A DNA stretch of 64,000 bases from positions 1 through 64,000 of the forward strand of contig NZ_JABJRA010000002.1 in assembly GCF_013155365.1 (NCBI RefSeq), given 5' to 3'. Of this stretch, positions 34,074-47,933 are shown in pieces. The notes under the pieces were generated by a model. That model had not been told where the DNA came from, did no database searches, and saw only the letters and a program-made list of their open reading frames with translations. A program made the translations under genes and the position numbers. How positions within the stretch are numbered: position 1 is the stretch's first letter; each line of letters begins with the position of its first letter. Origin of the DNA: Nocardioides sp. zg-DK7169. GTDB taxonomy: Bacteria; Actinomycetota; Actinomycetes; Propionibacteriales; Nocardioidaceae.

Positions 34074-37000
34074 TCAGGAGACCACCAGCACCAGGTCCCC
34101 GCCCTCGACGGACTGGGTCCCGCTGATCGCGAGGCGCTCCACGGTGCCGCTCACCGGGGCGGTGATCGCGGCCTCCATCTTCATCGCCTCGATGGTCGCG
34201 ACGGTGTCACCGGCCTCCACGGTGTCCCCGGCCTCCACGGCCACCGTCACGACGCCCTGGAACGGCGCACCGACGTGGCCGGGCTTGGAGGAGTCGGCCT
34301 TCTCGGCGGTCGCGGCCTCGGAGGCGACGCTGGTGTCACGGACACTGACCGGGCGCAGCTGGCCGTTGATCAGCGCCAGCACGTTGCGGAAGCCGCGCTC
34401 GTCGGGCTCGCCGATCGCCTGCACGCCCAGCAGCAGGGTCACGCCCGGCTCCAGGTCCACCCGGTGCTCCTCGCCGAAGCGCAGGCCGTAGAGGTAGTCC
34501 AGCGTCGGCAGCACCGAGATGTCGCCGTACGTCGCCCGCGACTCGTTGAAGGAGCGCGTCGGGCCGGGGAAGAGCAGCTCGTTGAGTGTGCGGCGGCGCA
34601 GCGGCCGGCTCTCGCCGGGGGCCGCCTCGAGGGCCTCCTCCTGCTCGGGGGTGAGCTCCTCGTCCTGCATCTTCCAGGTGCGGCCCTCGAGCGCCTTCGC
34701 GCGGAACTCCTCGGGCCAGCCGCCGGGCGGGTCGCCCAGCTCGCCGCTGAGGAAGCCGATGACGGAGTCGGGGATGTCGAACTTCTGCGGGTTCTCCGCG
34801 AACTCCGCCGGGTCGGCACCCGCCGCGACCAGCGAGAGCGCGAGGTCGCCGATCACCTTGGAGGACGGCGTCACCTTCGGGACGTTGCCGAGGATGTCGT
34901 TCGCCGCGGCGTACATGTCCTCGATCTGCTCGAACTTCTCGCCCAGGCCCAGCGCGATCGCCTGCTGGCGCAGGTTGGAGAGCTGGCCGCCGGGGATCTC
35001 GTGGCGGTAGACGCGGCCGGTCGGAGCGGGCAGGCCCGACTCGAACGGCGCGTAGACGCGGCGGGTCGCCTCCCAGTACGGCTCCAGGGCGTTGACCGAG
35101 GCCAGCGACAGGCCGGTCTCGCGCGCGGAGTGGTCGGTGGCCGAGACCAGCGCGGAGAGCGCCGGCTGGGAGGTGGTGCCCGCGACCGCGGCGCAGGCGG
35201 CGTCCACCGCGTCGACGCCGGCGTCGATCGCCGCGGTCAGGGTGGCCAGCTGGCCGCCCGGGGTGTCATGGGTGTGCAGGTGCACCGGCAGGTCGAAGTT
35301 CTCGCGCAGCGCGGTCACCAGGCGGCGCGCCGCGGGGGCGCGCAGCAGGCCGGCCATGTCCTTGATCGCCAGCACGTGCGCGCCGGCGTCGACGATGCGC
35401 TCGGCCAGGCGCAGGTAGTAGTCGAGGGTGTAGATCTTCTCGTTCGGGTCCGACAGGTCGCCGGTGTAGCACAGCGCCACCTCGGCGACGGTGGTGCCGG
35501 TCGCCAGGACCGCGTCGATGGCCGGGCGCATCTGCTCGACGTCGTTGAGCGCGTCGAAGATGCGGAAGACGTCGAGTCCGCTCGCTGCGGCCTCGGCGAC
35601 GAAGGCGTCGGTGACCTTGGTGGGGTACGGCGTGTAGCCCACGGTGTTGCGCCCGCGCAGCAGCATCTGCAGGCAGATGTTGGGCACCGCCTGGCGCAGC
35701 GACGCGAGCCGCTCCCAGGGGTCCTCGCCGAGGAAGCGCAGCGCGACGTCGTACGTCGCGCCGCCCCAGGCCTCCAGCGACCAGAGCTCGGGGGTGGTGC
35801 GGGCGACGTGCGGCGCCACGGCCAGCAGGTCCTTGGTGCGGACCCGGGTGGCGAGCAGCGACTGGTGGGCGTCGCGGAAGGTGGTGTCGGTGACCGCGAC
35901 CCGGTCCTGGGCGCGCAGCCGGCGCGCGAACTCCGCGGGGCCGACCTCGAGCAGCAGCTGGCGGGTGCCGTCCGGGGCGGGGACCTCGAGGTTGGTCGGC
36001 GGCAGCTTGGTGGCGGGGTCCAGGCTGACCGGCGCCGGGCCGTGCGGCTGGTTGACGGTGACCTCGGCGAGGTAGGTCAGCAGCTTGGTGCCGCGGTCGC
36101 CGGAGCGGCGTGCCTGGAGCAGCTGCGGGTGGGTCTCGATGAAGGAGGTCGTGACGTGGCCCGCGATGAAGTCGGGGTCGGCGAGCACGGCCTGGAGGAA
36201 GGCGATGTTGGTGGAGACGCCGCGGATGCGGAACTCCGCGATCGCGCGGCGCGCCCGCTCGACGGCCTTCTCGAAGGTGCGGCCGCGACAGGTGAGCTTG
36301 GCCAGCATCGAGTCGAAGTGCGCCGAGACCTCGGCGCCGGTGTAGGTGGTGCCGCCGTCGATGCGCACGCCGGCGCCGCCGGGGGAGCGGTAGGTGGTGA
36401 TGACACCGGTGTCCGGGCGGAAGTTGTTGGCCGGGTCCTCGGTGGTGATGCGGCACTGCAGCGCCGCGCCGCGCAGGGTGATGGAGTCCTGGCTGAGGCC
36501 GAGGTCGGCCAGGGTCTCGCCGGCGGCGATCCGCAGCTGGGCCTGCACGAGGTCGACGTCGGTGACCTCCTCGGTCACCGTGTGCTCGACCTGGATGCGC
36601 GGGTTCATCTCGATGAAGACGTAGTTGCCCGCGGGGTCGAGGAGGAACTCCACCGTGCCCGCGTTGCGGTAGCCGATCTCGCGGGCGAAGCGCACCGCGT
36701 CGGCGCACATCCGGTCGCGCAGCTCGGGGTCGAGGTTGGGCGCGGGGGCGATCTCGACGACCTTCTGGTGACGCCGCTGGACCGAGCAGTCGCGCTCGAA
36801 GAGGTGGATCACGTTGCCCTCGCCGTCGGCGAGGATCTGCACCTCGATGTGGCGCGGGTCGACGACGGCCTGCTCCACGAAGACGGTCGGGTCGCCGAAG
36901 GCGGCCTCACCCTCGCGCATGCAGGTCTCGACGGCCTCGCGCAGCTTGGCCGGGTCGTCGACGCGGCGCATGCCGCGCCCGCCGCCGCCGGCGACGGCCT

Positions 37001-37472
37001 TGACGAAGAGGGGGTAGGGCAGCTCGGAAGCGGCCTCGACGAGGGCGTCGACGTCGGTGGACGGCTCCACGCTGGCGAGCGTGGGCACCCCGGCGGCCTT
37101 GGCGGCCGCGATCGCGCGGGCCTTGTTGCCGGTCAGCTCCAGGACGTCGGCGGTCGGGCCGACGAAGGTGATCCCGGCGTTCGCGCAGGCCTCGGCGAGC
37201 GCGGGGTTCTCCGAGAGGAAGCCGTAGCCGGGGTAGATCGCGTCCGCGCCGGCCCGTACGGCGGTCTCCACGATGCCCTCGGGGTCGAGGTAGGCGCGCA
37301 CCGGGTGGCCGCGCTCGCCGATCTCGTAGGCCTCGTCGGCCTTGAGCCGGTGCTCGGAGCCCCGGTCCTCGTAGGGGAAGACCGCGACCGTGCGCGCGTT
37401 CAGCTCGTAGGCCGCGCGGAACGCCCGTACCGCGATCTCGCCGCGGTTTGCCACCAGCACCTTGGAGAACAT
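34074..37472 (-). CDS. pyc: Pyruvate carboxylase
   Basis: This 1132-residue single-chain enzyme makes oxaloacetate from pyruvate, bicarbonate and ATP. Order: biotin carboxylase ([42 protein letters not shown]) to about residue 460, carboxyltransferase with DTTFRDAHQSLLATR and the KDMAGLLRAP metal/lysine motif (about 530-800), linker, and BCCP with EAMKMEAA near the C-terminus. The start follows a GGAG-like sequence; a long open frame upstream is rejected. It is separated by 53 bases from the PH-domain gene of the cassette run. Confidence 0.96.
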   Translation of the reverse strand: MFSKVLVANRGEIAVRAFRAAYELNARTVAVFPYEDRGSEHRLKADEAYEIGERGHPVRAYLDPEGIVETAVRAGADAIYPGYGFLSENPALAEACANAGITFVGPTADVLELTGNKARAIAAAKAAGVPTLASVEPSTDVDALVEAASELPYPLFVKAVAGGGGRGMRRVDDPAKLREAVETCMREGEAAFGDPTVFVEQAVVDPRHIEVQILADGEGNVIHLFERDCSVQRRHQKVVEIAPAPNLDPELRDRMCADAVRFAREIGYRNAGTVEFLLDPAGNYVFIEMNPRIQVEHTVTEEVTDVDLVQAQLRIAAGETLADLGLSQDSITLRGAALQCRITTEDPANNFRPDTGVITTYRSPGGAGVRIDGGTTYTGAEVSAHFDSMLAKLTCRGRTFEKAVERARRAIAEFRIRGVSTNIAFLQAVLADPDFIAGHVTTSFIETHPQLLQARRSGDRGTKLLTYLAEVTVNQPHGPAPVSLDPATKLPPTNLEVPAPDGTRQLLLEVGPAEFARRLRAQDRVAVTDTTFRDAHQSLLATRVRTKDLLAVAPHVARTTPELWSLEAWGGATYDVALRFLGEDPWERLASLRQAVPNICLQMLLRGRNTVGYTPYPTKVTDAFVAEAAASGLDVFRIFDALNDVEQMRPAIDAVLATGTTVAEVALCYTGDLSDPNEKIYTLDYYLRLAERIVDAGAHVLAIKDMAGLLRAPAARRLVTALRENFDLPVHLHTHDTPGGQLATLTAAIDAGVDAVDAACAAVAGTTSQPALSALVSATDHSARETGLSLASVNALEPYWEATRRVYAPFESGLPAPTGRVYRHEIPGGQLSNLRQQAIALGLGEKFEQIEDMYAAANDILGNVPKVTPSSKVIGDLALSLVAAGADPAEFAENPQKFDIPDSVIGFLSGELGDPPGGWPEEFRAKALEGRTWKMQDEELTPEQEEALEAAPGESRPLRRRTLNELLFPGPTRSFNESRATYGDISVLPTLDYLYGLRFGEEHRVDLEPGVTLLLGVQAIGEPDERGFRNVLALINGQLRPVSVRDTSVASEAATAEKADSSKPGHVGAPFQGVVTVAVEAGDTVEAGDTVATIEAMKMEAAITAPVSGTVERLAISGTQSVEGGDLVLVVS

Positions 37473-37525: not shown

Positions 37526-39049
37526 TCAGTCGCGGGTCGACGGCGGGTCGGGGAGACGCTCGGGGACGGCGAGGAACTGGCTCACCAGCCCGGGCACGGC
37601 GTCGTCGGCGAGCCGCAGCGCCGCCTCGAGCGGTACGTCGGGGACCGTGACCGCCTGGTCGCCCCCGGCCGTGGTCGCGGTGAGGGTGACCAGCCCGGCG
37701 CGTCGCTGCACGACCGTGTCGCGCAGGGTCCAGCCGATGACGTGGCGGGTGGCGAGCACCTCGCGGGAGCGGGCGAGGCTGCCGGAGCGGGCGACCAGGT
37801 GGCCCGCGACGAGCGCGTGGCCGAGGGACCGGGTGCGGTCGTGCGCCAGGCCGGCGGCCACGGGCAGCGCGAGCACGGCGAGGACGACGCCCCAGATGCC
37901 GACCGGCAGGGTGAGGGTGGCGACGACGCCGAGAGCGGCGAGGAGCACCGCGGGTCCCAGGGCGCGGGCCCAGCGGCGTCGCGTTGCCGCCGGTCCGTGG
38001 GTCCGCAGGGCGACGTCGAGCGGCTGCGGGGTGCCGACGACCTCGCCGCCGACGCCGGCGGCGACCGCGGCCGGGGCCGGCGGGACCAGGGTGGCGCTGC
38101 CCGCCCGGCTGCGGTCCAGCCCGGTGACGATCGCCGACAGGTGAGCCGCGCCCGCCAGCCGCAGCCCGAGCGGCTCGTGGAGCACCGCCCCGGCCACCCG
38201 GTCGTCGTCGAGAGTGGTCTCCCGGGTGGTGAGCAGGCCACGCACCAGGTGCCACGCGCCGGGTCGGTGGCTGAGCACGAGGTCCCAGCTGGTGAGCAGG
38301 TAGGCGGCCACCGAGAGCGCGGAGACGACCAGCAGCGTGACCACCAGGCCGATCAGCACGACCAGCCAGCCGGCGACCGGCAGCGAGGTGCCGGGCAGGT
38401 CGTCGGCATGCAGCCGCAGCTCGATCCCCAGCGTGGTCGCGAGCTGCAGCCCGCCGCCGACGACGGTGGCCAGCAGCACCAGGCCGGTGCCGGTCAGCGG
38501 CGCGTAGCGGGCCCAGGCCGGGTCCAGGCGCAGGACCGTCCGCACGGCCCGGTCCGGGTCGGGCCGGAGCAGGTCGTCGTCGGGTCGGTGCCCGTCCGCC
38601 GGCTCGCCGGCACGCAGCAGCGCGGCGCGCAGGGTGCGGGCGGCAGCGACCGGCAGGCCGTCGAGGTCGAGGGAGTCCTCCTCGCGGGAGGAGGCGGTGC
38701 CGGTGCCGATGCGCACGGTGACCAGCCCGAGCAGCCGGTGGACCGGGGGCGCGGTGAGGTCGACGGTGCGGACCCGGTCGACGGGCACCGCGAGCGTGCG
38801 CCGGCTGAGCAGGCCGCGGCGCAGCTCCACGCGGCCGTCGGCCACGCGGTAGCGGGTGGTGAGGTAGCGGACCGTGCCCAGGACGACCGGCACGACGAGC
38901 GCCAGCAGCTGCCAGCCGCGTACGCCGATCGCGGTGCCGGCGACCAGCAGGCCGAGGAGCGCGGGCAGGAGCTTCATGAACTCCTGCACCGGGTTGACCA
39001 GCAGCATCCGCCGGTCGAGGCGCTGCCAGCCGTCGGTCTCGCCGTTCAC
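37526..39049 (-). CDS. Membrane protein with repeated bacterial PH (bPH2) domains
   Basis: This 507-residue protein has several pairs of membrane helices (near 28-60, 200-265 and 360-410) separated by bPH2-like domains, with TTRYRVADGRVELRRGLL and RTVDLTAPPVHRLLGLVTV in the first and related segments later. It resembles YdbT. The GTG overlaps the stop of the smaller PH gene by 4 bases, as in YdbS-YdbT pairs of B. subtilis. The YdbS-YdbT pair is linked to resistance to some bacteriocins, but here the role is unknown. Confidence 0.82.
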   Translation of the reverse strand: MNGETDGWQRLDRRMLLVNPVQEFMKLLPALLGLLVAGTAIGVRGWQLLALVVPVVLGTVRYLTTRYRVADGRVELRRGLLSRRTLAVPVDRVRTVDLTAPPVHRLLGLVTVRIGTGTASSREEDSLDLDGLPVAAARTLRAALLRAGEPADGHRPDDDLLRPDPDRAVRTVLRLDPAWARYAPLTGTGLVLLATVVGGGLQLATTLGIELRLHADDLPGTSLPVAGWLVVLIGLVVTLLVVSALSVAAYLLTSWDLVLSHRPGAWHLVRGLLTTRETTLDDDRVAGAVLHEPLGLRLAGAAHLSAIVTGLDRSRAGSATLVPPAPAAVAAGVGGEVVGTPQPLDVALRTHGPAATRRRWARALGPAVLLAALGVVATLTLPVGIWGVVLAVLALPVAAGLAHDRTRSLGHALVAGHLVARSGSLARSREVLATRHVIGWTLRDTVVQRRAGLVTLTATTAGGDQAVTVPDVPLEAALRLADDAVPGLVSQFLAVPERLPDPPSTRD

Positions 39050-39567
39050 GTGGCGTCGTCCCCGGCGGCTCGCGGCGCGGGACCGGGCGCCGGGCCGGTG
39101 GCGTCGGCGCGCAGCGTCAGCTCGTCGACCAGCGCCCGCGCCACGTCGAGGTCGAGGCCGGGGATGGCCAGCGGCCCCGCGGCCGAGGCGGTGGTCACCG
39201 TGACGGTGGCCAGCCCGAACACCCGCGCGGCCGCGCCCTGCTCCAGGTCGACGGTCTGCACCCGCGAGATCGGCGCGATCCGGCGCTCCCGCGCCCACCA
39301 GCCGGTCTGGGTGTAGACGGCCGTCGCGGTCACCTCCCAGCGGTGCACGAGGTAGCGCCACTGCGGCACCGCCACGGCGTACGCCGCGAGCACGACGGCC
39401 ACCGGTGGGACCAGCCACCAGCGCAGCGTGTCGGTGAGGACGACGCCCACGACCAGGACGGCGAGCAGCACCGTGGCGCCGATCGCGTGCGTGCACCACC
39501 ACATCAGGCGCGCACGCGGGCAGACCCGCTCGTGCGGCTCGCGGAGGTCCGACGTCGCAGTGCCCAT
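39046..39567 (-). CDS. Small membrane protein with bPH2 domain
   Basis: This 173-residue protein resembles YdbS: two membrane helices (about 25-65) followed by a bPH2 domain with HRWEVTATAVYTQTGW and RVQTVDLEQGAAARVFGLAT. Its ATG at 39567 is 32 bases after the stop of the C2 gene, and it overlaps the larger PH protein gene, so both PH genes may belong to the cassette transcript. Confidence 0.82.
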   Translation of the reverse strand: MGTATSDLREPHERVCPRARLMWWCTHAIGATVLLAVLVVGVVLTDTLRWWLVPPVAVVLAAYAVAVPQWRYLVHRWEVTATAVYTQTGWWARERRIAPISRVQTVDLEQGAAARVFGLATVTVTTASAAGPLAIPGLDLDVARALVDELTLRADATGPAPGPAPRAAGDDAT

Positions 39568-39599: not shown

Positions 39600-40787
39600 C
39601 TACCCGCGGCGGTCGAGCAGCCGCCCGAGCAGGTCGGTGTCCAGGGCCCCGTAGCCGGTCCTGCTCCACGCGCCCAGGTCGAGGTGGAAGTAGTGGGTGG
39701 GACGGCCGTCGGCCACGAAGTCCAGGACGTCGGCCGGCTCCCGGCCGGCCTCGAGGGCGGACGCGCAGCGCGCGCAGGCCGGCACCTGGACCGCCGTCGC
39801 GCCGTCGTGCCACGGTGCCGTGGCGACCGGTCCCTCGTGCAGGGGGTTGAGGTAGCACCCCGGCGACGGGCTCCACCCGCGTCCCCGCACCGCCGCGTCC
39901 AGTGCGGCCCGGCCCCGGCCGGCCAGCACGATCGCCCCGACCGCGTCGGCGGGGGAGTGCTCGCGGTCGAGGATGCGCCGGGCAACGTCGTAGTGGTCCA
40001 GTGCGGCCTGCCAGGCCGGCAGCGAGGCGGCGCGGCGGGGGTCGAGGTGGGCGGCGTCGACGGCCTCGCCGAGCGCGAGCACGTCGGCGTGGGCGCGCGC
40101 CTCGTTGCGCCGGTCCTCGGCGGCGCGGACGGTGCTCAGCACCGCCGGCGGCAGGGTGAAGGGCGATCCGTCGGCGGTCGGGAGCGCTGCGGGTGCGCGC
40201 CGGCGGCGTACGCCGATGACCACGGCGACGGCCACGACCACCACCGCGACCAGGACGCCCACGACATCCGTCCCGGCCCCGGCGTCGTCGCTCGGCGCGG
40301 CCGGGACGGTACCGGTGCCGCTCTCGGTGCCGGTGTCCGTGCCGTTCATCTCGTCGTAGAGCCGGTCGGCGTCCCCGGACTCCACCAGCTCCAGGGCCCG
40401 CAGCGTCTGGGCACCGAGGTCGTCGGGGTGCTCGGCCTGAGCGACCGCGGAGGCGGTGAAGAGCCCGTCATCCTTGGGGTAGGAGACGAGCTCGAGGCGG
40501 TACGGCTCGTCGCTGATGCGTGGCTGCGGCACGACGTAGATGCCCGAGCGGTCGGTGTCGTCCCGGATCATCCCGGCCAGCTGCCCAGGGTCCCCGTCGG
40601 TCAGGTCGCGGTGGTCGAGCTCGACGAGCGCGACGTACGTCGGGGTCGAGGCCTCGGCGACCGCTGCCTCGAGACGTGCCTCCTGTGCGGGTGAGACCTC
40701 AGCGCGCAGCTCGGGCGCGACCCAGACCCCGTCGTCGCCGAGCTCGGCCTCGATCTCGCGCAGCAGCGGCTCGTCGATCCAGGTCAT
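39600..40787 (-). CDS. Cassette protein C2: outer domain, TM, Cys/His C-terminal domain
   Basis: This 395-residue protein is unrecognised beyond the local family. It has an N-terminal soluble domain (about 1-145; DDGVWVAPELRAEVSPA, SGIYVVPQ), a Thr/Gly-rich linker, one membrane helix (174-193) followed by RRRR, and a C-terminal domain. That domain carries Cys311, Asn314 and His317 in CYLNPLHEG, Cys338 and Cys341 in CARC, then W374 and TGYGA. A three-Cys/one-His metal site is inferred. It is a paralogue of C1 (42876-44090) and overlaps B2 by 4 bases. Confidence 0.75.
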   Translation of the reverse strand: MTWIDEPLLREIEAELGDDGVWVAPELRAEVSPAQEARLEAAVAEASTPTYVALVELDHRDLTDGDPGQLAGMIRDDTDRSGIYVVPQPRISDEPYRLELVSYPKDDGLFTASAVAQAEHPDDLGAQTLRALELVESGDADRLYDEMNGTDTGTESGTGTVPAAPSDDAGAGTDVVGVLVAVVVVAVAVVIGVRRRRAPAALPTADGSPFTLPPAVLSTVRAAEDRRNEARAHADVLALGEAVDAAHLDPRRAASLPAWQAALDHYDVARRILDREHSPADAVGAIVLAGRGRAALDAAVRGRGWSPSPGCYLNPLHEGPVATAPWHDGATAVQVPACARCASALEAGREPADVLDFVADGRPTHYFHLDLGAWSRTGYGALDTDLLGRLLDRRG

Positions 40788-41488
40788 GACCGGGCCTCCA
40801 GGGCGTGCCGCGAGCGGGCGGTCACCAGGGCGCCCAGGAGACCGAGCACGAGCAGCAGCCCGAGGTAGCCGATGAGCGCGAAGATCAGCCCGGCCGCGAG
40901 GGCGCCGAGGGCACCGCCCCAGTCGTCGGAGTCGGGCCGGGGCTCCCCGGGCCGGGCGGCCTCGGTCTCCGCCAGCTCGGTGACCACCCGGGTCAACGCG
41001 GCGGCGGGCCGGCCGGTCCCGTCGGCCTCGATCCTCGGCTCCTGGTAGCCGAGCGCCGCGAGTACGGGCGGGCGCCCCGGCGACAGGACCGCGTAGAACC
41101 CCTCGCGGAAGACGCCGGCGCGCAGCTGGTCCATCGCGCTCTCCGGCTGGGCGTACCCGGCGTGCCACGTCTCCTCCCACCAGACCACGAACAGCGGCAC
41201 CGGTGCGTCGGCGATGATCTCCTCGATCTGCTCCACCTCGTCCGCGTCGAGCTCCCCGCGCAGCTCGGGGCCGACGTGCAGACCGGTCTCCTGCACGGCG
41301 TCGATCGCGGCCTGCACCCGGTCGCCCGGCGTGGCGGCGGCGGCCGCGGCCAGGACCGCCTGGTCGTAGGGGTGCGGCTCCGGCGTCGGGTGGTGGCCGG
41401 GCACGGCCCCGGCGAGCAGTCCGGCGCCCAGGGAGACGACGAGCGCGAGGCCCGCGGTGGCCGGTCGCAGCCGGCGGCGCCCGGTCAC
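40784..41488 (-). CDS. Cassette protein B2: two-helix membrane protein
   Basis: This 234-residue protein begins with an Arg-rich tail and a membrane helix (about 10-29), followed by a soluble domain (about 52-150; GLHVGPELRGELDADE, DAPVPLFVVWW) and a second helix region (191-222) with a short positive tail. The positive-inside rule places the domain outside the cytoplasm. It lacks the Cys/His motif of A and C proteins. The GTG and stop each overlap neighbours by 4 bases. Paralogue of B1. Confidence 0.72.
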   Translation of the reverse strand: MTGRRRLRPATAGLALVVSLGAGLLAGAVPGHHPTPEPHPYDQAVLAAAAAATPGDRVQAAIDAVQETGLHVGPELRGELDADEVEQIEEIIADAPVPLFVVWWEETWHAGYAQPESAMDQLRAGVFREGFYAVLSPGRPPVLAALGYQEPRIEADGTGRPAAALTRVVTELAETEAARPGEPRPDSDDWGGALGALAAGLIFALIGYLGLLLVLGLLGALVTARSRHALEARS

Positions 41489-42720
41489 CGGAGCCGCCGC
41501 TCGCCGGCGACCTGGCGGGCCAGGTCGGCCAGGTCCGTGGTCAGGCTGCCGTACCCGGTGCGGGCCCACACGCTGTCCTCCTCGTAGTAGGGCCGGAGCC
41601 GGCCGCCGTGCCCGACCATCAGGGCGGTCGGCGGCTGCTCGCCGACGAACGCGCGGTGGCACGCGGCGCAGACCGGGACCTCGATCTCGGCGTCGCCGAA
41701 CCGCCACTGGGCGACCTGCTCCGCGGCGCCGTGCAGCGGGTTGACGAAGCAGGGCCGATAGGAGTCTGCATAGGGGTCCGCGCTCAGGAGGGCGTGTCGC
41801 CCGGCGTGGACCAGCACCAGGGCGCCGACCACGTCGCGCACGTCCTCGGAGCGCAGCAGCGGTTCGGCCGTCTCGCGGGCCAGCGCGGCCTGGACCTGGC
41901 CCGGCCCCGCGGGGGCGCCGACGAGGGCCTCTGCCAGGTCGGTGAGCCCGGCGTCGGCCTCCTCGCGGACCTCGGCGAGGTCCGGGGGCAGCACGACGGG
42001 CGCGGGGACCTCGCGGACCGGGGCCAGGAGGCGGCGCCAGCCCGGCCAGCCGCGCATGGACTGCAGCAGCACCGCCAGCAGCAGGCCGGCCACCAGGGAC
42101 CCGACCATCCACCGCTGGGTGGGGTGCCAGTCCACGGGCGGCGCCGGCCTGGCGTACTCCTCGGACCAGGCCGGGGACTCATAGTCCGGCAGCGCATGCT
42201 CCCGGGCGACGAGCTCCTCGACGGTCTCGTCGTCGAGCGTGGGTTCCTGCCAGGGCCTCTCGTCGTCCGGCCCGGCCGGCTCGGCCAGGGCGGTGCGCAG
42301 GATGGTCTCGACCTCGACCGTGGGCGCCAGGATGCTGACTCCGGCGCCGTCGGTCACCGCCCGCCGGTCGATGTCGGCCTGCAGGGCGAAGTACGTCTCG
42401 TCCCACTCGGTACCCACCACCCGGAAACCGGTGACGGCCTCCCGGGTGGCGACGACGTAGAGCCCCGGCTCGCCGACGCGACGGCTCAGCGCGGTGGCGA
42501 GGTAGCGGCCGGAGTCGATGCCCGCGTCCACCTCGGGCGGGCTCTCGATGATGGCGACGTAGGTGCGGAACGGCACCTGCTCCACGAGCCGGGTGATCCG
42601 GTCGAGGGCTCCGGCGGTGTCCCCGCCGCCGAGGGTCTCGTGGACGATGACCTGGTCCTCGCGCAGCGCCTCGGCGAGCGCCTCGACGGTGTCCGGATAG
42701 GGGACATCGGCTGAGATCAT
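41485..42720 (-). CDS. Cassette protein A2: outer domain, TM, Cys/His C-terminal domain
   Basis: This 411-residue protein has an N-terminal domain (about 1-150; REDQVIVHETLGGGDTAGAL, FRTYVAIIESPP, EPGLYVVA), a membrane helix (about 204-221) and a C-terminal domain with Cys324, Asn327 and His330 in CFVNPLHG, Cys351 and Cys354 in CAAC, then a YYEEDSVWARTGYGS ending. Similar C-terminal regions occur in uncharacterised actinobacterial membrane proteins. It is the second copy of A1, preceded by a 155-base gap after C1. Confidence 0.75.
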   Translation of the reverse strand: MISADVPYPDTVEALAEALREDQVIVHETLGGGDTAGALDRITRLVEQVPFRTYVAIIESPPEVDAGIDSGRYLATALSRRVGEPGLYVVATREAVTGFRVVGTEWDETYFALQADIDRRAVTDGAGVSILAPTVEVETILRTALAEPAGPDDERPWQEPTLDDETVEELVAREHALPDYESPAWSEEYARPAPPVDWHPTQRWMVGSLVAGLLLAVLLQSMRGWPGWRRLLAPVREVPAPVVLPPDLAEVREEADAGLTDLAEALVGAPAGPGQVQAALARETAEPLLRSEDVRDVVGALVLVHAGRHALLSADPYADSYRPCFVNPLHGAAEQVAQWRFGDAEIEVPVCAACHRAFVGEQPPTALMVGHGGRLRPYYEEDSVWARTGYGSLTTDLADLARQVAGERRLR

Positions 42721-42875
42721 CTGTGCCCGGGACCGCTCAGTCCGTGGTCTCGCGGTCGGTGGCGCTCACCGCGTCGCGGTGCGCCGCCGGCGCCTGGGAG
42801 GACATGGCGCACACGCTAGCCGGGCGCCCGGCCCGGCAGGTCACGAGGTCTCGGAGTCCACCGCCGCCCGGCCGG
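42721..42875. other. Gap between the two cassette copies
   Basis: The 155 bases between C1 and A2 contain no strong hairpin and no clear promoter. A 22-codon minus-strand frame (42737-42805) exists but has no ribosome-binding site. Whether transcription reads through is open. Confidence 0.4.
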
Positions 42876-44090
42876 TCAGCGGGTCCCGCGGGACCCTCGA
42901 CCCCGCAGGGCCGTCAGCAGGTCCGGCTCCAGGGCGCCGTACCCGGTCGAGGCCCAGGGCTCGGCGTCGGTGGCGAAGTAGTGCACCGGCTCGCCGTCGC
43001 GGACCACGTCGAGGATGTCGGGCCGACGGCCCGCGGCGAGGTCCTTGCCGCACTGCGCGCACACCAGTACGTCGAGGGCGCGACCGGCGTCGTCGAGCTT
43101 GCGCCGGGCGCCGGCGCGGCCGTGGAGGGGGTTGAGGAAGCAGGGCGCGTCGGGGGAGAAGGCCCGGCTCCGTCCGGCGGCGTCGAGGGCGGCCCCGCCC
43201 CGAGCGGCCAGGACGATCGCCCCGATCACGTCCAGCAGGTCCGGCGACGCGGCGGGGTCGCGGCCGAGGACCCGGCGGGCGGCGTCGTAGTGGTCCAGCG
43301 CCGCCTGCCAGGCGTCGGCGTTCGCCGTCCTGGTCAGCTGGGTGCCGTCGATGCGCTCGCCGAGCGCGAGGACGTCCTGCTCGGCGCGGGAGCGCAGCCG
43401 TGCGTCGTCGGCGCTGCGCACCCGCTCCAGCACCGAGGGCGGGAGGGTGAAGCGCGGCTCGGGGCGGCCGCGAGCCCCGGCGGGGCGGCGTCGGCGCCGG
43501 ATGGCCAGGGCGGCCAGGGCGCCGACCACGAGCGCGGCCACCACCGCGCCGACGATCACGGGACCGCCGGCCCCGTCGCCGTCACCACCGTCGGGGCCGG
43601 GAGCCGTCGTGGTGGTCTCCGGTCGGGCCTCGTAGGCATCCCGGGCCTCGGCAGCCTTCGCCGGGACGGTCCCGTCGGCGATGGCGGTGGTCAGCTCGAC
43701 CAGTCCGGCGCCGACGTCCTCGGGGTGCAGCCAGTGCGCGATGCCATAGGCGTTGTAGGGCAGGTCGAGGCGGCCCTCGTCCCCGGTCCACTCCTTGGAC
43801 TCCAGCGAGTACTCCCCGGTCGAGAAGATGTAGGTGGGGGCGACGAACCAGCCGGGGGTGCCCAGGTCGTCGTGCACCCGGGTCAGCATGTCGCCGGCGT
43901 CGCCGCTGAAGACGTCGCCGTCCTCGAGCGCCCGGACCACCACGTGCACGGGCACGTCGATGCGGGCCACCGCGGCCTCGATCGCCGCCTCCTCGGCGGC
44001 GTCGACGTGCCGGGCCATGCCGGGGCCGATGTGGACGCCGTCCTCGCGCAGGTCCGCGACGATCTCGGTGACGGGGTCGGTCTGGGTCAT
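42876..44090 (-). CDS. Cassette protein C1: outer domain, TM, Cys/His C-terminal domain
   Basis: This 404-residue protein matches C2 in layout: N-terminal domain (about 1-145; REDGVHIGPGMARHVD, VPVHVVVRAL, TPGWFVAP), a Thr/Gly linker, a helix (177-197) followed by RRRRR, then a C-terminal domain with Cys317, Asn320 and His323 in CFLNPLHG, Cys344 and Cys347 in CAQC, W379 and TGYGA. Basic residues after the helix indicate a cytoplasmic C-terminal domain and therefore an extracytoplasmic N-terminal one. No signal peptide is present. Confidence 0.75.
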   Translation of the reverse strand: MTQTDPVTEIVADLREDGVHIGPGMARHVDAAEEAAIEAAVARIDVPVHVVVRALEDGDVFSGDAGDMLTRVHDDLGTPGWFVAPTYIFSTGEYSLESKEWTGDEGRLDLPYNAYGIAHWLHPEDVGAGLVELTTAIADGTVPAKAAEARDAYEARPETTTTAPGPDGGDGDGAGGPVIVGAVVAALVVGALAALAIRRRRRPAGARGRPEPRFTLPPSVLERVRSADDARLRSRAEQDVLALGERIDGTQLTRTANADAWQAALDHYDAARRVLGRDPAASPDLLDVIGAIVLAARGGAALDAAGRSRAFSPDAPCFLNPLHGRAGARRKLDDAGRALDVLVCAQCGKDLAAGRRPDILDVVRDGEPVHYFATDAEPWASTGYGALEPDLLTALRGRGSRGTR

Positions 44091-44872
44091 CGGGTGCCCT
44101 TCGCGAGGGGTCGGGGGCGGTTGCGGAAGGGCCGGCCGGTGGCTAGCCGGGCCAGCCCGGTGAGCAGGTAGGCGCCGGCCGCGACCGGGGCCGCGACCAT
44201 CAGCAGGGCCGCGGCGATCCCACCGCCGACCCCGCCCCAGTAGTCGTTGGACTCGGCGTCCTCGAGGACGCCGTCGGCGGGCAGGCCGCCGATGAACTCG
44301 CTGAGTCGGGTCTCGGCGTCGCCCAGCGGCTGGAGGTCGGGCACCTCCCAGCCGAGCCGCTGGTCCTCGGGGACGCCGACGCCGACGTCGTCCGGACCTT
44401 GCCAGACGATGTAGATGCCCGGCTCGCCGAGCTCGGTGGCCAGCTGGTCGGGCAGGGTGAAGGAGTACGGCTCCGGGCCGGCCTGCATGCTCGCCTCCCA
44501 GACCAAGATGTGCACCGGCACGGGCGCGGCTGCGATGAGCTGCTCGAGGCGCCGTTCGCCCTCGACCGAGACCATGTCGCGACCGTCGGGCGCGACGTAC
44601 ACGGGGTCCTCGCGCAGCGCGGCGATCGCCCCCTGCACCCGGTCGCCGGGCTCGCGCGCGGTCTGCTCGCCGCGCTCGTCGACCAGGTGGACGCCGAGCG
44701 CCGCACCCCCGAGGCCGAGCAGACAGGCGAGCCCGAGGTCGACGGCGTGCCGCCCGGTCAGCTCGACCCCGCCCCGGGCGAGGTCGAGGAGGTTGTCGGT
44801 GGACGCCTTCTTGGCGTTGGCGTGCGTCCGCCCGGGGTGGCCCGAGCGGGTACGGCGGGTGCGGGCGCTCAT
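44087..44872 (-). CDS. Cassette protein B1: two-helix membrane protein
   Basis: This 261-residue protein has a basic N-terminal tail, a first helix (about 43-64), a middle domain (about 78-165; REDPVYVAPDGRDMVSVE, PVPVHILVWEAS, GEPGIYIVWQ) and a C-terminal helix region (214-241) with a basic tail. The middle domain has the same pattern as the N-terminal domains of A and C. It overlaps A1 and C1 by 4 bases each. Paralogue of B2. Confidence 0.72.
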   Translation of the reverse strand: MSARTRRTRSGHPGRTHANAKKASTDNLLDLARGGVELTGRHAVDLGLACLLGLGGAALGVHLVDERGEQTAREPGDRVQGAIAALREDPVYVAPDGRDMVSVEGERRLEQLIAAAPVPVHILVWEASMQAGPEPYSFTLPDQLATELGEPGIYIVWQGPDDVGVGVPEDQRLGWEVPDLQPLGDAETRLSEFIGGLPADGVLEDAESNDYWGGVGGGIAAALLMVAAPVAAGAYLLTGLARLATGRPFRNRPRPLAKGTR

Positions 44873-46128
44873 CGTGCCGCCTGCCGGTCCTCGAGCACGG
44901 CGCGCCACAGGTCGTCGCTGATCGCGCCGAAGCCGGTGCGCGCCCAGACGTCGTCGCCCTCCCAGTAGGGCCGCAGCCGCCGGAAGCGGGTGCGCACCTG
45001 GAGCGGGTCGGCCAGCTCGGGACGCGACTGCGCACGGCGGCACCGCTCACACACCGGCACCTCGACCTGGTCTCCGCCCCCGGCGGCCGTCACCCGGGCG
45101 CTGGCCTCGCCGTGCCAGGGGTTGAGGAAGCACGGGCGGTACGGCGTCTCCGGGTCCTCGAGGGCCCGGCGGGCGGTGCGGACCAGGACCAGGGCGCCCA
45201 GCGTCGCGAGGAGGTCGGCCTCGTCGTCGGCGCTGGAGTCCAGCAGGGTGCGGGCCGCGGTGCGTGAGCCGTCGAGGCGCTGCTCGCGGGCCGGATCGGT
45301 GAGCGCCGGCGAGACGGTGACCGAACGGCGCAGCAGCGCCCGGTCGAGGTCCGCCAGGTCCTTCTCGGCGCGGCGGCGCACGTCGTGGACGGCGGGTGCG
45401 GCGCGGTTGGCCGGGCCGGCGCCGGGGGTCGTGCCCCGGGGGACACCCGCGGCCACCGGGGTGGCCGGGGCGAGCTCGCGCCAGCGGGCGATGGTGCGCA
45501 GCACGAACCAGGCGAGGATCGCCACCCCGACGCCCAGCCCGGTGGCGACCACCGCGTAGGTGCCCTCCGTGGGTGCGCTGATGTCCTCGCTGAGGGTGCT
45601 GCCGCGGTCCACCCAGAGATCGCCGGTGCGGTACTCCGCGACCTGGTCACCGGGCAGCGGCTCGGCGTCGTTGAGGGCGGTCGCGACCAGCTCGGCCGCC
45701 TCGCCGGCGGCGCTGGAGGTCCGCTCGCCGTTCTCCGGCGCCGCGTTCACGGCGTAGATGTCCCACTTGCCGGGGACCTCGGCGCCGTACGTCTGCCACC
45801 CCAGGTGCCCGACGACCGTGTCGACGGCCACGACGTAGAGCCCGTCCTCGCCGATCTCGGCGTGCAGCAGGGAGGCGAGCTCCTCCTCGGGCTGGTCGTC
45901 GGCGAGCCCGCCTGGCCGCTGGACCAGGGCGACGTACACCGGGAAGTCGGCCCCGTCGATGAGCTCGGTGAGGGCGTCGTCGACGGCGTCGCGCTGCCCG
46001 TTGCCCATGATCTCCTGGACGATCACGGGGTCCTCACGCAATGCGGCGGCGAGCCCCCCGACGCTCCAGGTGGGGGCGTCGAGGGGCTCGTCCTCACGCG
46101 GCTGGGGTGCCGGCGGGAGGGAGCTCAC
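44869..46128 (-). CDS. Cassette protein A1: outer domain, TM, Cys/His C-terminal domain
   Basis: This 419-residue protein has an N-terminal domain (about 20-160; REDPVIVQEIMGNGQRDAV, DFPVYVALVQRPG, EDGLYVVAVD), a membrane helix (about 190-212), a helical segment, and a C-terminal domain with Cys333, Asn336 and His339 in CFLNPWHG, Cys360 and Cys363 in CERC, and WARTGFGA. The GTG at 46128 lies 29 bases after the acyl-CoA carboxylase alpha gene, suggesting co-transcription. Function is unknown. Confidence 0.75.
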   Translation of the reverse strand: MSSLPPAPQPREDEPLDAPTWSVGGLAAALREDPVIVQEIMGNGQRDAVDDALTELIDGADFPVYVALVQRPGGLADDQPEEELASLLHAEIGEDGLYVVAVDTVVGHLGWQTYGAEVPGKWDIYAVNAAPENGERTSSAAGEAAELVATALNDAEPLPGDQVAEYRTGDLWVDRGSTLSEDISAPTEGTYAVVATGLGVGVAILAWFVLRTIARWRELAPATPVAAGVPRGTTPGAGPANRAAPAVHDVRRRAEKDLADLDRALLRRSVTVSPALTDPAREQRLDGSRTAARTLLDSSADDEADLLATLGALVLVRTARRALEDPETPYRPCFLNPWHGEASARVTAAGGGDQVEVPVCERCRRAQSRPELADPLQVRTRFRRLRPYWEGDDVWARTGFGAISDDLWRAVLEDRQAAR

Positions 46129-46157: not shown

Positions 46158-47933
46158 TCAGTCCTTGATCTCGCAGATGACCTCGCCGTTGCTGACCGTG
46201 GCGCCGACCTCGGCCTTGAGGCCGGTGACGGTGCCGGCCTTGTGGGCCTTGAGGGGCTGCTCCATCTTCATCGCCTCCATGACGACCACGACATCGCCCT
46301 CGGCGACCTCCTGGCCCTCCTCGACGGCGAGCTTGACGATGGTGCCCTGCATCGGGCTGGTCACGGCGTCGCCGCTGACCGCCGCGCCGGACTTCTTGCC
46401 GGCCGCACGCTTCGGCTTCTTGGCGCCGTTGGCCGCGCCGCCGCCACCGATCGAGCCGAGCCCGCCGGGCACGACGACCTCGAGCCGGCGTCCGCCGACC
46501 TCGACGACGACGGTGTGGCGGTCCTCGGCCTCGGGGGCCTCGGGGGTGTCGCCGGCGTACGGCTGGATCTGGTTGTCGAAGTCGGTCTCGATCCAGGTCG
46601 TGTAGACGTCGAACTTCTCGCCGTCACCGATGAACGCCGGGTCCTCGACCACGGTGGCGTGGAACGGGATGACGGTGGGCATGCCGTCGACCTTGAACTC
46701 GGCCAGGGCGCGGCGCGAGCGCTCCAGGGCCTGGGTGCGGTCGCGGCCGGTGACGACGAGCTTGGCGATGAGGGAGTCGAACGAGCCCGGGATGGTCTCG
46801 CCCTTCTCGTAGCCGCCGTCGACGCGGATGCCGGGGCCCTGCGGCGGCGCCCACTCGGTGAGGGTGCCGGGGGCCGGCATGAAGTTGCGGCCGCCGTCCT
46901 CGGCGTTGATGCGGAACTCGATGGAGTGGCCGTGGATCTCCGGGTCGTCGTACCCGAGCTCCTCGCCCGCGGCGATGCGGAACATCTCGCGGACCAGGTC
47001 GATGCCGGTGACCTCCTCGGAGACGCAGTGCTCGACCTGGAGGCGGGTGTTGACCTCGAGGAAGGAGATGGTGCCGTCGGCGGCCACGAGGAACTCGCAG
47101 GTGCCGGCGCCGACGTAGCCGGCCTCGCGCAGGATCGCCTTGGAGGAGGTGTAGAGCTTCTCGACCTGCTCGTCGGTCAGGAACGGCGCGGGCGCCTCCT
47201 CGACCAGCTTCTGGTGGCGGCGCTGCAGCGAGCAGTCGCGGGTCGACACGACGACCACGTTGCCGTGGGAGTCGGCCAGGCACTGGGTCTCGACGTGGCG
47301 CGGGCGGTCGAGGAACTTCTCGACCAGGCACTCGCCGCGACCGAACGCGGTGACGGCCTCGCGGACGGCGGACTCGTAGGCGTCGGGGATCTCCTCGAGC
47401 GTGCGGGCGACCTTGAGGCCGCGGCCGCCGCCGCCGAAGACCGCCTTGATGGCGACCGGCAGGCCGTTGGCCTTGGCGAACTCGACGACCTCGTCGGCGT
47501 CCTTGACCGGGTCCTTGGTGCCGGGCGCGAGGGGCGCGTTGGCCTTCTGCGCGATGTGCTTGGCCTTGGCCTTGTCACCGAGCGCGTCGATCGCCTCGGG
47601 CGAGGGACCGATCCAGATCAGCCCGGCGTCGAGGACGGCCTGGGCGAACTGGGCGTTCTCGGCGAGGAAGCCGTAGCCCGGGTGCACCGAGTCGGCGCCG
47701 GACTTCTTCGCGACCGCGATGATCTTCTCGATGTCGAGGTAGGACTCGGCCGGGGTCGCGCCCTGGAGCGAGTGGGCCTCGTCGGCCATGCGGACGAACA
47801 CTGCGTCGCGGTCGGGCTCGGCGTACACCGCCACGCTCCCGATCCCGGCGTCCTTGCACGCGCGGATCACCCGGACTGCGATCTCACCGCGGTTGGCGAT
47901 GAGAACCTTCTGCAACGGCTTGCTCTCCGGCAC
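46158..47933 (-). CDS. Acyl-CoA (acetyl/propionyl-CoA) carboxylase alpha chain with biotin carrier
   Basis: This 591-residue chain has biotin carboxylase (to about 450; [46 protein letters not shown]), a linker and a C-terminal BCCP domain with biotinylated Lys in [12 protein letters not shown]. It supplies the carboxybiotin for AccD-type beta chains such as the one at 57594-59222. GTG is preceded by AGGAG, and a huge in-frame upstream open stretch is rejected. It heads the minus-strand run leading into the A-B-C cassettes. Confidence 0.95.

Follow-up and report, generated by a model that had tools for sequence, protein, structure and literature searches.

We analyzed a 64,000-nucleotide stretch of Nocardioides sp. 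zg-DK7169 (contig NZ_JABJRA010000002.1, positions 1 to 64,000; hereafter the window), in which six adjacent minus-strand genes encode two successive sets of three predicted membrane proteins, A, B and C. We find that this three-gene set is conserved across several actinobacterial genera, that all its proteins contain a common domain for which the TPM fold is predicted, and that A and C also carry four conserved positions that could bind a metal. The six genes are as follows (positions in the window).

44869..46128, minus strand: A1, 419 amino acids (aa); TPM-like N-terminal domain, one transmembrane segment (TM) at 192-210, cytoplasmic helical and Cys/His domain (C333, H339, C360, C363)
44087..44872, minus strand: B1, 261 aa; TM 43-61, TPM-like domain, TM 219-237, without the Cys motif
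42876..44090, minus strand: C1, 404 aa; TPM-fold domain at about 5-150, TM 179-197, cytoplasmic domain with C317, H323, C344 and C347
41485..42720, minus strand: A2, 411 aa; A1-like, TM 204-222, motif starting at C324
40784..41488, minus strand: B2, 234 aa; B1-like, TM 11-29 and 197-215
39600..40787, minus strand: C2, 395 aa; C1-like, TM 175-193, motif starting at C311

A preliminary description of the window had placed all six genes correctly, and the 4-base overlaps that it reported inside the triplets are present at all four junctions. The two cassettes are separated by 155 bases between C1 and A2. It was also right that the Cys/His motif occurs in A1, C1, A2 and C2, each with one predicted TM, and is absent from B1 and B2, which have two. 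Matches to sigma-70 promoters and terminators did not exceed the rate expected by chance in this GC-rich window.

The N-terminal domains of all six proteins are homologous, as had been proposed. Alignment of profiles with hhalign joined C-type and A-type proteins over their full length (100% probability, E = 1.3e-51), and matched the B-type domain to both the C-type (98.5%, E = 2.5e-15) and the A-type (97.6%, E = 2.9e-12). The shared domain is predicted to adopt the TPM fold. The two motifs by which it had been described hold less widely: L-x-x-D-x-V-x-V is exact in four of the six (the final residue is I in C1, and B2 reads VQETGLHV), as is G-[IL]-Y-[IV]-V, with GWFVA in C1 and GFYAV in B2. 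None of the six proteins reaches a Pfam or NCBIfam cut-off, and their few weak matches are sub-threshold; none matches PF04536 (TPM_phosphatase) at E up to 10, or PF20381 (the Rv1476 family). The PF04536 model finds a single place in the genome itself, on another contig. PF20381 is matched at E values of up to 1 by nine of 45 C-type proteins (C2 and 44 of the C1 search matches), with 4.5e-7 as the best value, and a PspA-linked relative in locus L175 scores above that family's cut-off (28.9 bits vs 26). At the 80% conservation level, the C-type domain retains no polar residue and the A-type only D33 and two tyrosines; D77 and R78 of the B-type are kept in all 20 rows of its alignment and E110 in 19. 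Protein searches, each capped at about 8000 scored candidates, returned 119 matches for C1, 47 for A1 (the query being counted in both) and 28 for B1. Public names are mostly 'hypothetical', with a few TPM domain-containing, DUF6676/Rv1476 or DUF4350 proteins.

The preliminary description placed the shared domain outside the cell and the Cys/His domain inside, and this predicted topology is supported by charge: positive charge is higher in the 20 residues that follow the TM than in the 20 that precede it, in all 92 C rows and all 84 A rows. Signal-peptide-like segments in relatives, scored by a hydropathy rule rather than by a signal-peptide program, point the same way. Among A rows, such a segment precedes the TPM domain in Actinomadura/Actinocorallia (17 of 18), Jiangellaceae (9 of 13), Kribbella-like genomes (3 of 4), Mumia (2 of 2) and Streptomycetaceae (7 of 11), and in none of the 34 Nocardioides rows or the two from other metagenome-assembled genomes (MAGs). 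Among C-labelled rows, all 4 Kribbella-like ones have it, as do 10 of the 15 from Streptomycetaceae, a number that includes the fused A of L098; of the remaining 73 rows two have it, and L035, a remote relative, is one of these. Note that the N-terminal domain of Nocardioides A and most C proteins, about 175 residues long and expected outside, has no preceding signal-like segment.

The Cys/His residues are conserved among homologues, as the preliminary description required. In an alignment of 88 rows, drawn from the 138 non-redundant of 197 profile matches, C317, H323 and C344 (C1 numbering) are invariant, and the fourth ligand position is C in 79 rows and D in nine. The motif is present in 196 of the 197 matches, and the remaining one is a fragment that ends inside it. 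The nine D rows all come from single-gene forms that are not part of the three-gene set; a TPM domain is present in some of them and absent from others, and all lie on loci that also carry an acyl-CoA carboxylase gene. The four positions are thus conserved as a set, and this pattern fits a predicted zinc site. It is not a classical zinc ribbon with two C-x2-C knuckles, since its first half is C-x5-H. The isolated domain was modeled very confidently (predicted local distance difference test score 95.8, predicted template modeling score 0.90), without a clear structural match in the searches made: Foldseek and VIA returned mainly common helical arrangements and no clear PDB match, and no sound match came from profile searches against PDB sequences. 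Pfam gave the 88 members scattered weak matches, none in more than two members among the first 25 of the 34 families matched. A fifth copy of the domain lies elsewhere in the genome (L166:7717-8472; G000:C1:152716-153471), in a stand-alone protein of 251 aa with an N-terminal TM, a C...H...C-x2-D motif and a Gly/Phe-rich end.

A search of actinobacterial genomes for the gene order had been suggested, and the gene set does recur, more than chance would give. Of 125 loci found by a scan of genome contigs, the best 80 were kept, and all counts out of 80 refer to these. Six-frame profile matches place the three modules in 77 of them; in the other three (L062, L085 and L090) a contig end interrupts the locus. 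In 58 loci a single Cys-less gene accompanies two Cys/His genes, and in 13 the Cys-less module and A share a single reading frame. The C frame is split in L060, L069 and L100, by frameshift or assembly error; the Cys-less TPM-like gene of L065 was recognized only when the gap was read, and an extra gene is present in L073 and L111. Cassettes occur in genomes of Nocardioides, Mumia, Jiangella, Phytoactinopolyspora, Streptomyces and Actinomadura and in Kribbella-like ones, in the orders A-B-C, C-A-B, B-A-C and the fused form, although the proteins are mostly named 'hypothetical' and the six of the window fall below Pfam and NCBIfam cut-offs.

The fused form accounts for 12 of the 15 loci labelled Streptomycetaceae, plus one MAG; of the other three, two are cut and L089 is Kribbella-like. 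The fused proteins of L086 and L098 read signal, TPM, TM, TM, TPM, TM, Cys/His, a layout that puts both TPM domains on one side of the membrane. From its make-up, the first module appears to be the counterpart of B. Such natural gene fusion can guide which subunits touch. The conserved set and the fusion support the likely single complex suggested in the preliminary description, and the conserved ligands fit its predicted metal binding. L089 (NZ_JAAGLV010000019.1) is named Streptomyces sp. SID13031, yet its cassette is Kribbella-like and falls with the f3 genomes in the tree; the name may be wrong. L031 and L034 are two-gene variants with adjoining TPM-TM-Cys/His proteins, of which one has a Gly/Ser-rich tail; a Cys-less gene of its own was not seen in either.

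The two cassettes of the window had been called duplicated. There are indeed two triplets, but C1 and C2 are only 41% identical, and in a tree of 90 C rows C2 groups with the Nocardioides soli copy (L059; support 100/99) and C1 with that of another genome of the genus (G035, L021; 100/100). Those two genomes have one cassette each at the locus, each of its own type, between acyl-CoA carboxylase and pyruvate carboxylase genes, where the window holds both types. On this grouping with the copies of different species, one cassette per species, we rejected a recent tandem duplication. The presence of both types may reflect either a retained old tandem or later recombination.

The genes on either side of the window cassettes, both carboxylases being recurring neighbors, are:

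46158..47933, minus strand: biotin carboxylase with a biotin carrier domain, acyl-CoA carboxylase type, directly upstream of A1
37526..39567, minus strand: two bPH_2 membrane proteins (PF03703), between cassette 2 and pyruvate carboxylase
34074..37472, minus strand: pyruvate carboxylase, downstream of the cassettes on the same strand

By eye, the gene lists of L021 and L059 show bPH_2-like genes in the same slot. In 23 of the 80 loci, a biotin carboxylase of the acyl-CoA carboxylase type is encoded on the same strand no more than 3 kb upstream (no more than 300 bases in 19), these being loci of Nocardioides, Mumia and MAGs and three of Phytoactinopolyspora; the window, L021 and L025 have the same link, and the remote stand-alone relatives L032 and L033 directly follow an acyl-CoA carboxylase gene. 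Pyruvate carboxylase is found within 3 kb downstream in 11 of the 80. Loci of Streptomyces, Actinomadura and Jiangella, the Kribbella-like ones and some from Phytoactinopolyspora had no acyl-CoA carboxylase within 3 kb upstream.

Some single-gene relatives have a different neighbor. The cytoplasmic domain occurs in 32 of 296 genomes of the phylum: the genome itself, eight of the same class and 23 of other classes. In eight of these 23 (G102, G135, G138, G171, G181, G224, G288 and G310), PspA is encoded no more than 1 kb from the domain, and G240 has a weaker PspA match at 4 kb. In the class of G181 (24 genomes), eight have the domain, six of them with an adjoining PspA. Pfam names five of these neighbors PspA_IM30 and two more PspAA, and the rest were called by a profile made from the five. 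The PspA-adjoining relatives that we read consist of signal, TPM, TM and Cys/His parts, mostly with a Gly-rich tail. PspA beside some single-gene relatives hints at a likely role in membrane care. In Bacillus subtilis, the membrane protein YdjH is reported to bind PspA and YdjI in two-hybrid tests, and PspA foci are abolished on loss of YdjH or YdjG (PMC8581546). A survey of phage shock protein (PSP) systems describes YdjH as a TPM protein with a proposed chaperone-like role (PMC11237479).

We tentatively propose, by analogy, that A-B-C is a three-subunit form of a YdjH-like receptor or scaffold for membrane-maintenance proteins, a reading that we hold with somewhat less than even confidence. 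A, B and C would be three membrane proteins with TPM-fold domains outside the cell, acting as binding modules rather than enzymes, and would join in one complex. The Cys3-His domains of A and C would bind zinc inside the cell, and the zinc-held domains would dock cytosolic membrane-maintenance proteins, as YdjH likely does PspA. The cassette would keep the role of the single-gene form. This makes it a concrete candidate anchor for PspA-type repair in actinobacteria, where we know of no account of such anchoring outside the mycobacterial ClgR-PspA-PspM type. These aspects (TPM identity, paralog age, gene fusion, and the PspA and carboxylase contexts) go beyond the preliminary description.

Several observations weigh against this proposal. 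No PspA was found in any of the 96 cassette-side sequences (the window and L021-L115), or at the best locus of the eight same-class genomes with domain matches, so the cassette lacks the pspA gene that sits beside a Psp-type receptor gene, and the PspA role is carried over by inference from remote single-gene relatives. Many cassettes adjoin biotin carboxylases rather than PspA. Even among the 23 other-class genomes, 15 (G240 being one) have no PspA within 1 kb; in 14 none was seen, some being on short contigs, and G127 and G257, of the class of G181, have none on the visible side, a contig end cutting the other. PspA occurs elsewhere in the genome in all six genus genomes with a strong C match vs 22 of 31 others; this difference is not significant, and we rejected co-occurrence as support. 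The PspA gene of the zg-DK7169 genome itself is at G000:C11:356425-357108. C proteins of most genera and Nocardioides A lack a signal-like segment, leaving export of their N-terminal domain unexplained, and the conserved D77 and R78 may allow an active or ligand site in the B-type domain. In B. subtilis, moreover, the SPFH protein YdjI is reported to be needed as well (PMC8581546).

Other explanations account for parts of the data. The cassette could help to assemble or stabilize a membrane redox complex, its TPM domains holding a respiratory complex or assembly intermediate from outside, as TPM proteins elsewhere do; we regard this as unlikely. CcoZ and Msmeg_4692 are TPM proteins of respiratory systems, for which we know of no three-gene cassette like A-B-C. 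In both, the TPM domain is reported to be within or close to a membrane complex of the respiratory chain (PMC8267372). The neighborhood suggests that the cassette might instead tether biotin-dependent carboxylases to the membrane or regulate them: its cytoplasmic domains would keep acyl-CoA carboxylase (and pyruvate carboxylase) in place there and link the supply of precursors to envelope state. The upstream and downstream carboxylases counted above, and the position of both old paralogous cassettes between two carboxylases, agree with it. However, the link was not seen in the loci already named, and the linked loci are mostly Nocardioidaceae, where inherited gene order may explain it. We consider a tether rather improbable.

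An extracytoplasmic TPM enzyme, a phosphatase or nucleotidase with structural zinc domains, would account for the kept B-type residues D77, R78 and E110, but all six proteins fail to match PF04536 and the C-type and A-type domains keep few or no polar residues; we give this very little credence. A bolder version of the receptor proposal combines both contexts: the cassette might encode a heterotrimer that represents a new class of envelope receptors in actinobacteria, whose three outward TPM domains would signal damage across the membrane to two zinc-held cytoplasmic domains that recruit PspA/ESCRT-III-like repair filaments and station biotin carboxylases. If true, lipid precursors would be made at the site of membrane mending, although we consider this a long shot.

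Comparison with known systems places the cassette, by predicted fold, among TPM-fold proteins, with its own arrangement of parts. AtTLP18.3, Psb32, BA41, PG_0361 and Rhom172_1776 (and cg2496) show 7-16% identity; the cassette proteins of the window have no sequence match to PF04536, and the TPM-fold proteins listed are not known to have a cytoplasmic Cys/His domain. To our knowledge Rv1476 also has no Cys/His domain, unlike A and C. Its family (PF20381) combines a TPM-like domain and a TM, as do the C-type proteins that match it, and Rv1476 is reported to have one TM at aa 148-157 (PMC10888442). Literature searches for 'TPM domain-containing protein' with Streptomyces gave nothing, and the available part of the PSP survey does not name a cassette protein (PMC11237479). 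The closest parallel is the YdjH system of PspA, YdjG and YdjI, in which a membrane TPM protein is encoded with PspA, more than one membrane protein is needed, and YdjG has a zinc ribbon and YdjI a zinc-finger motif (PMC8581546, PMC9239133, PMC11237479). The cassette differs in its C-x5-H...C-x2-C motif and in having no adjoining PspA gene. In the YdjH system different proteins carry the TPM part and the zinc parts, whereas the cassette joins them in the same chain, within a three-protein set.
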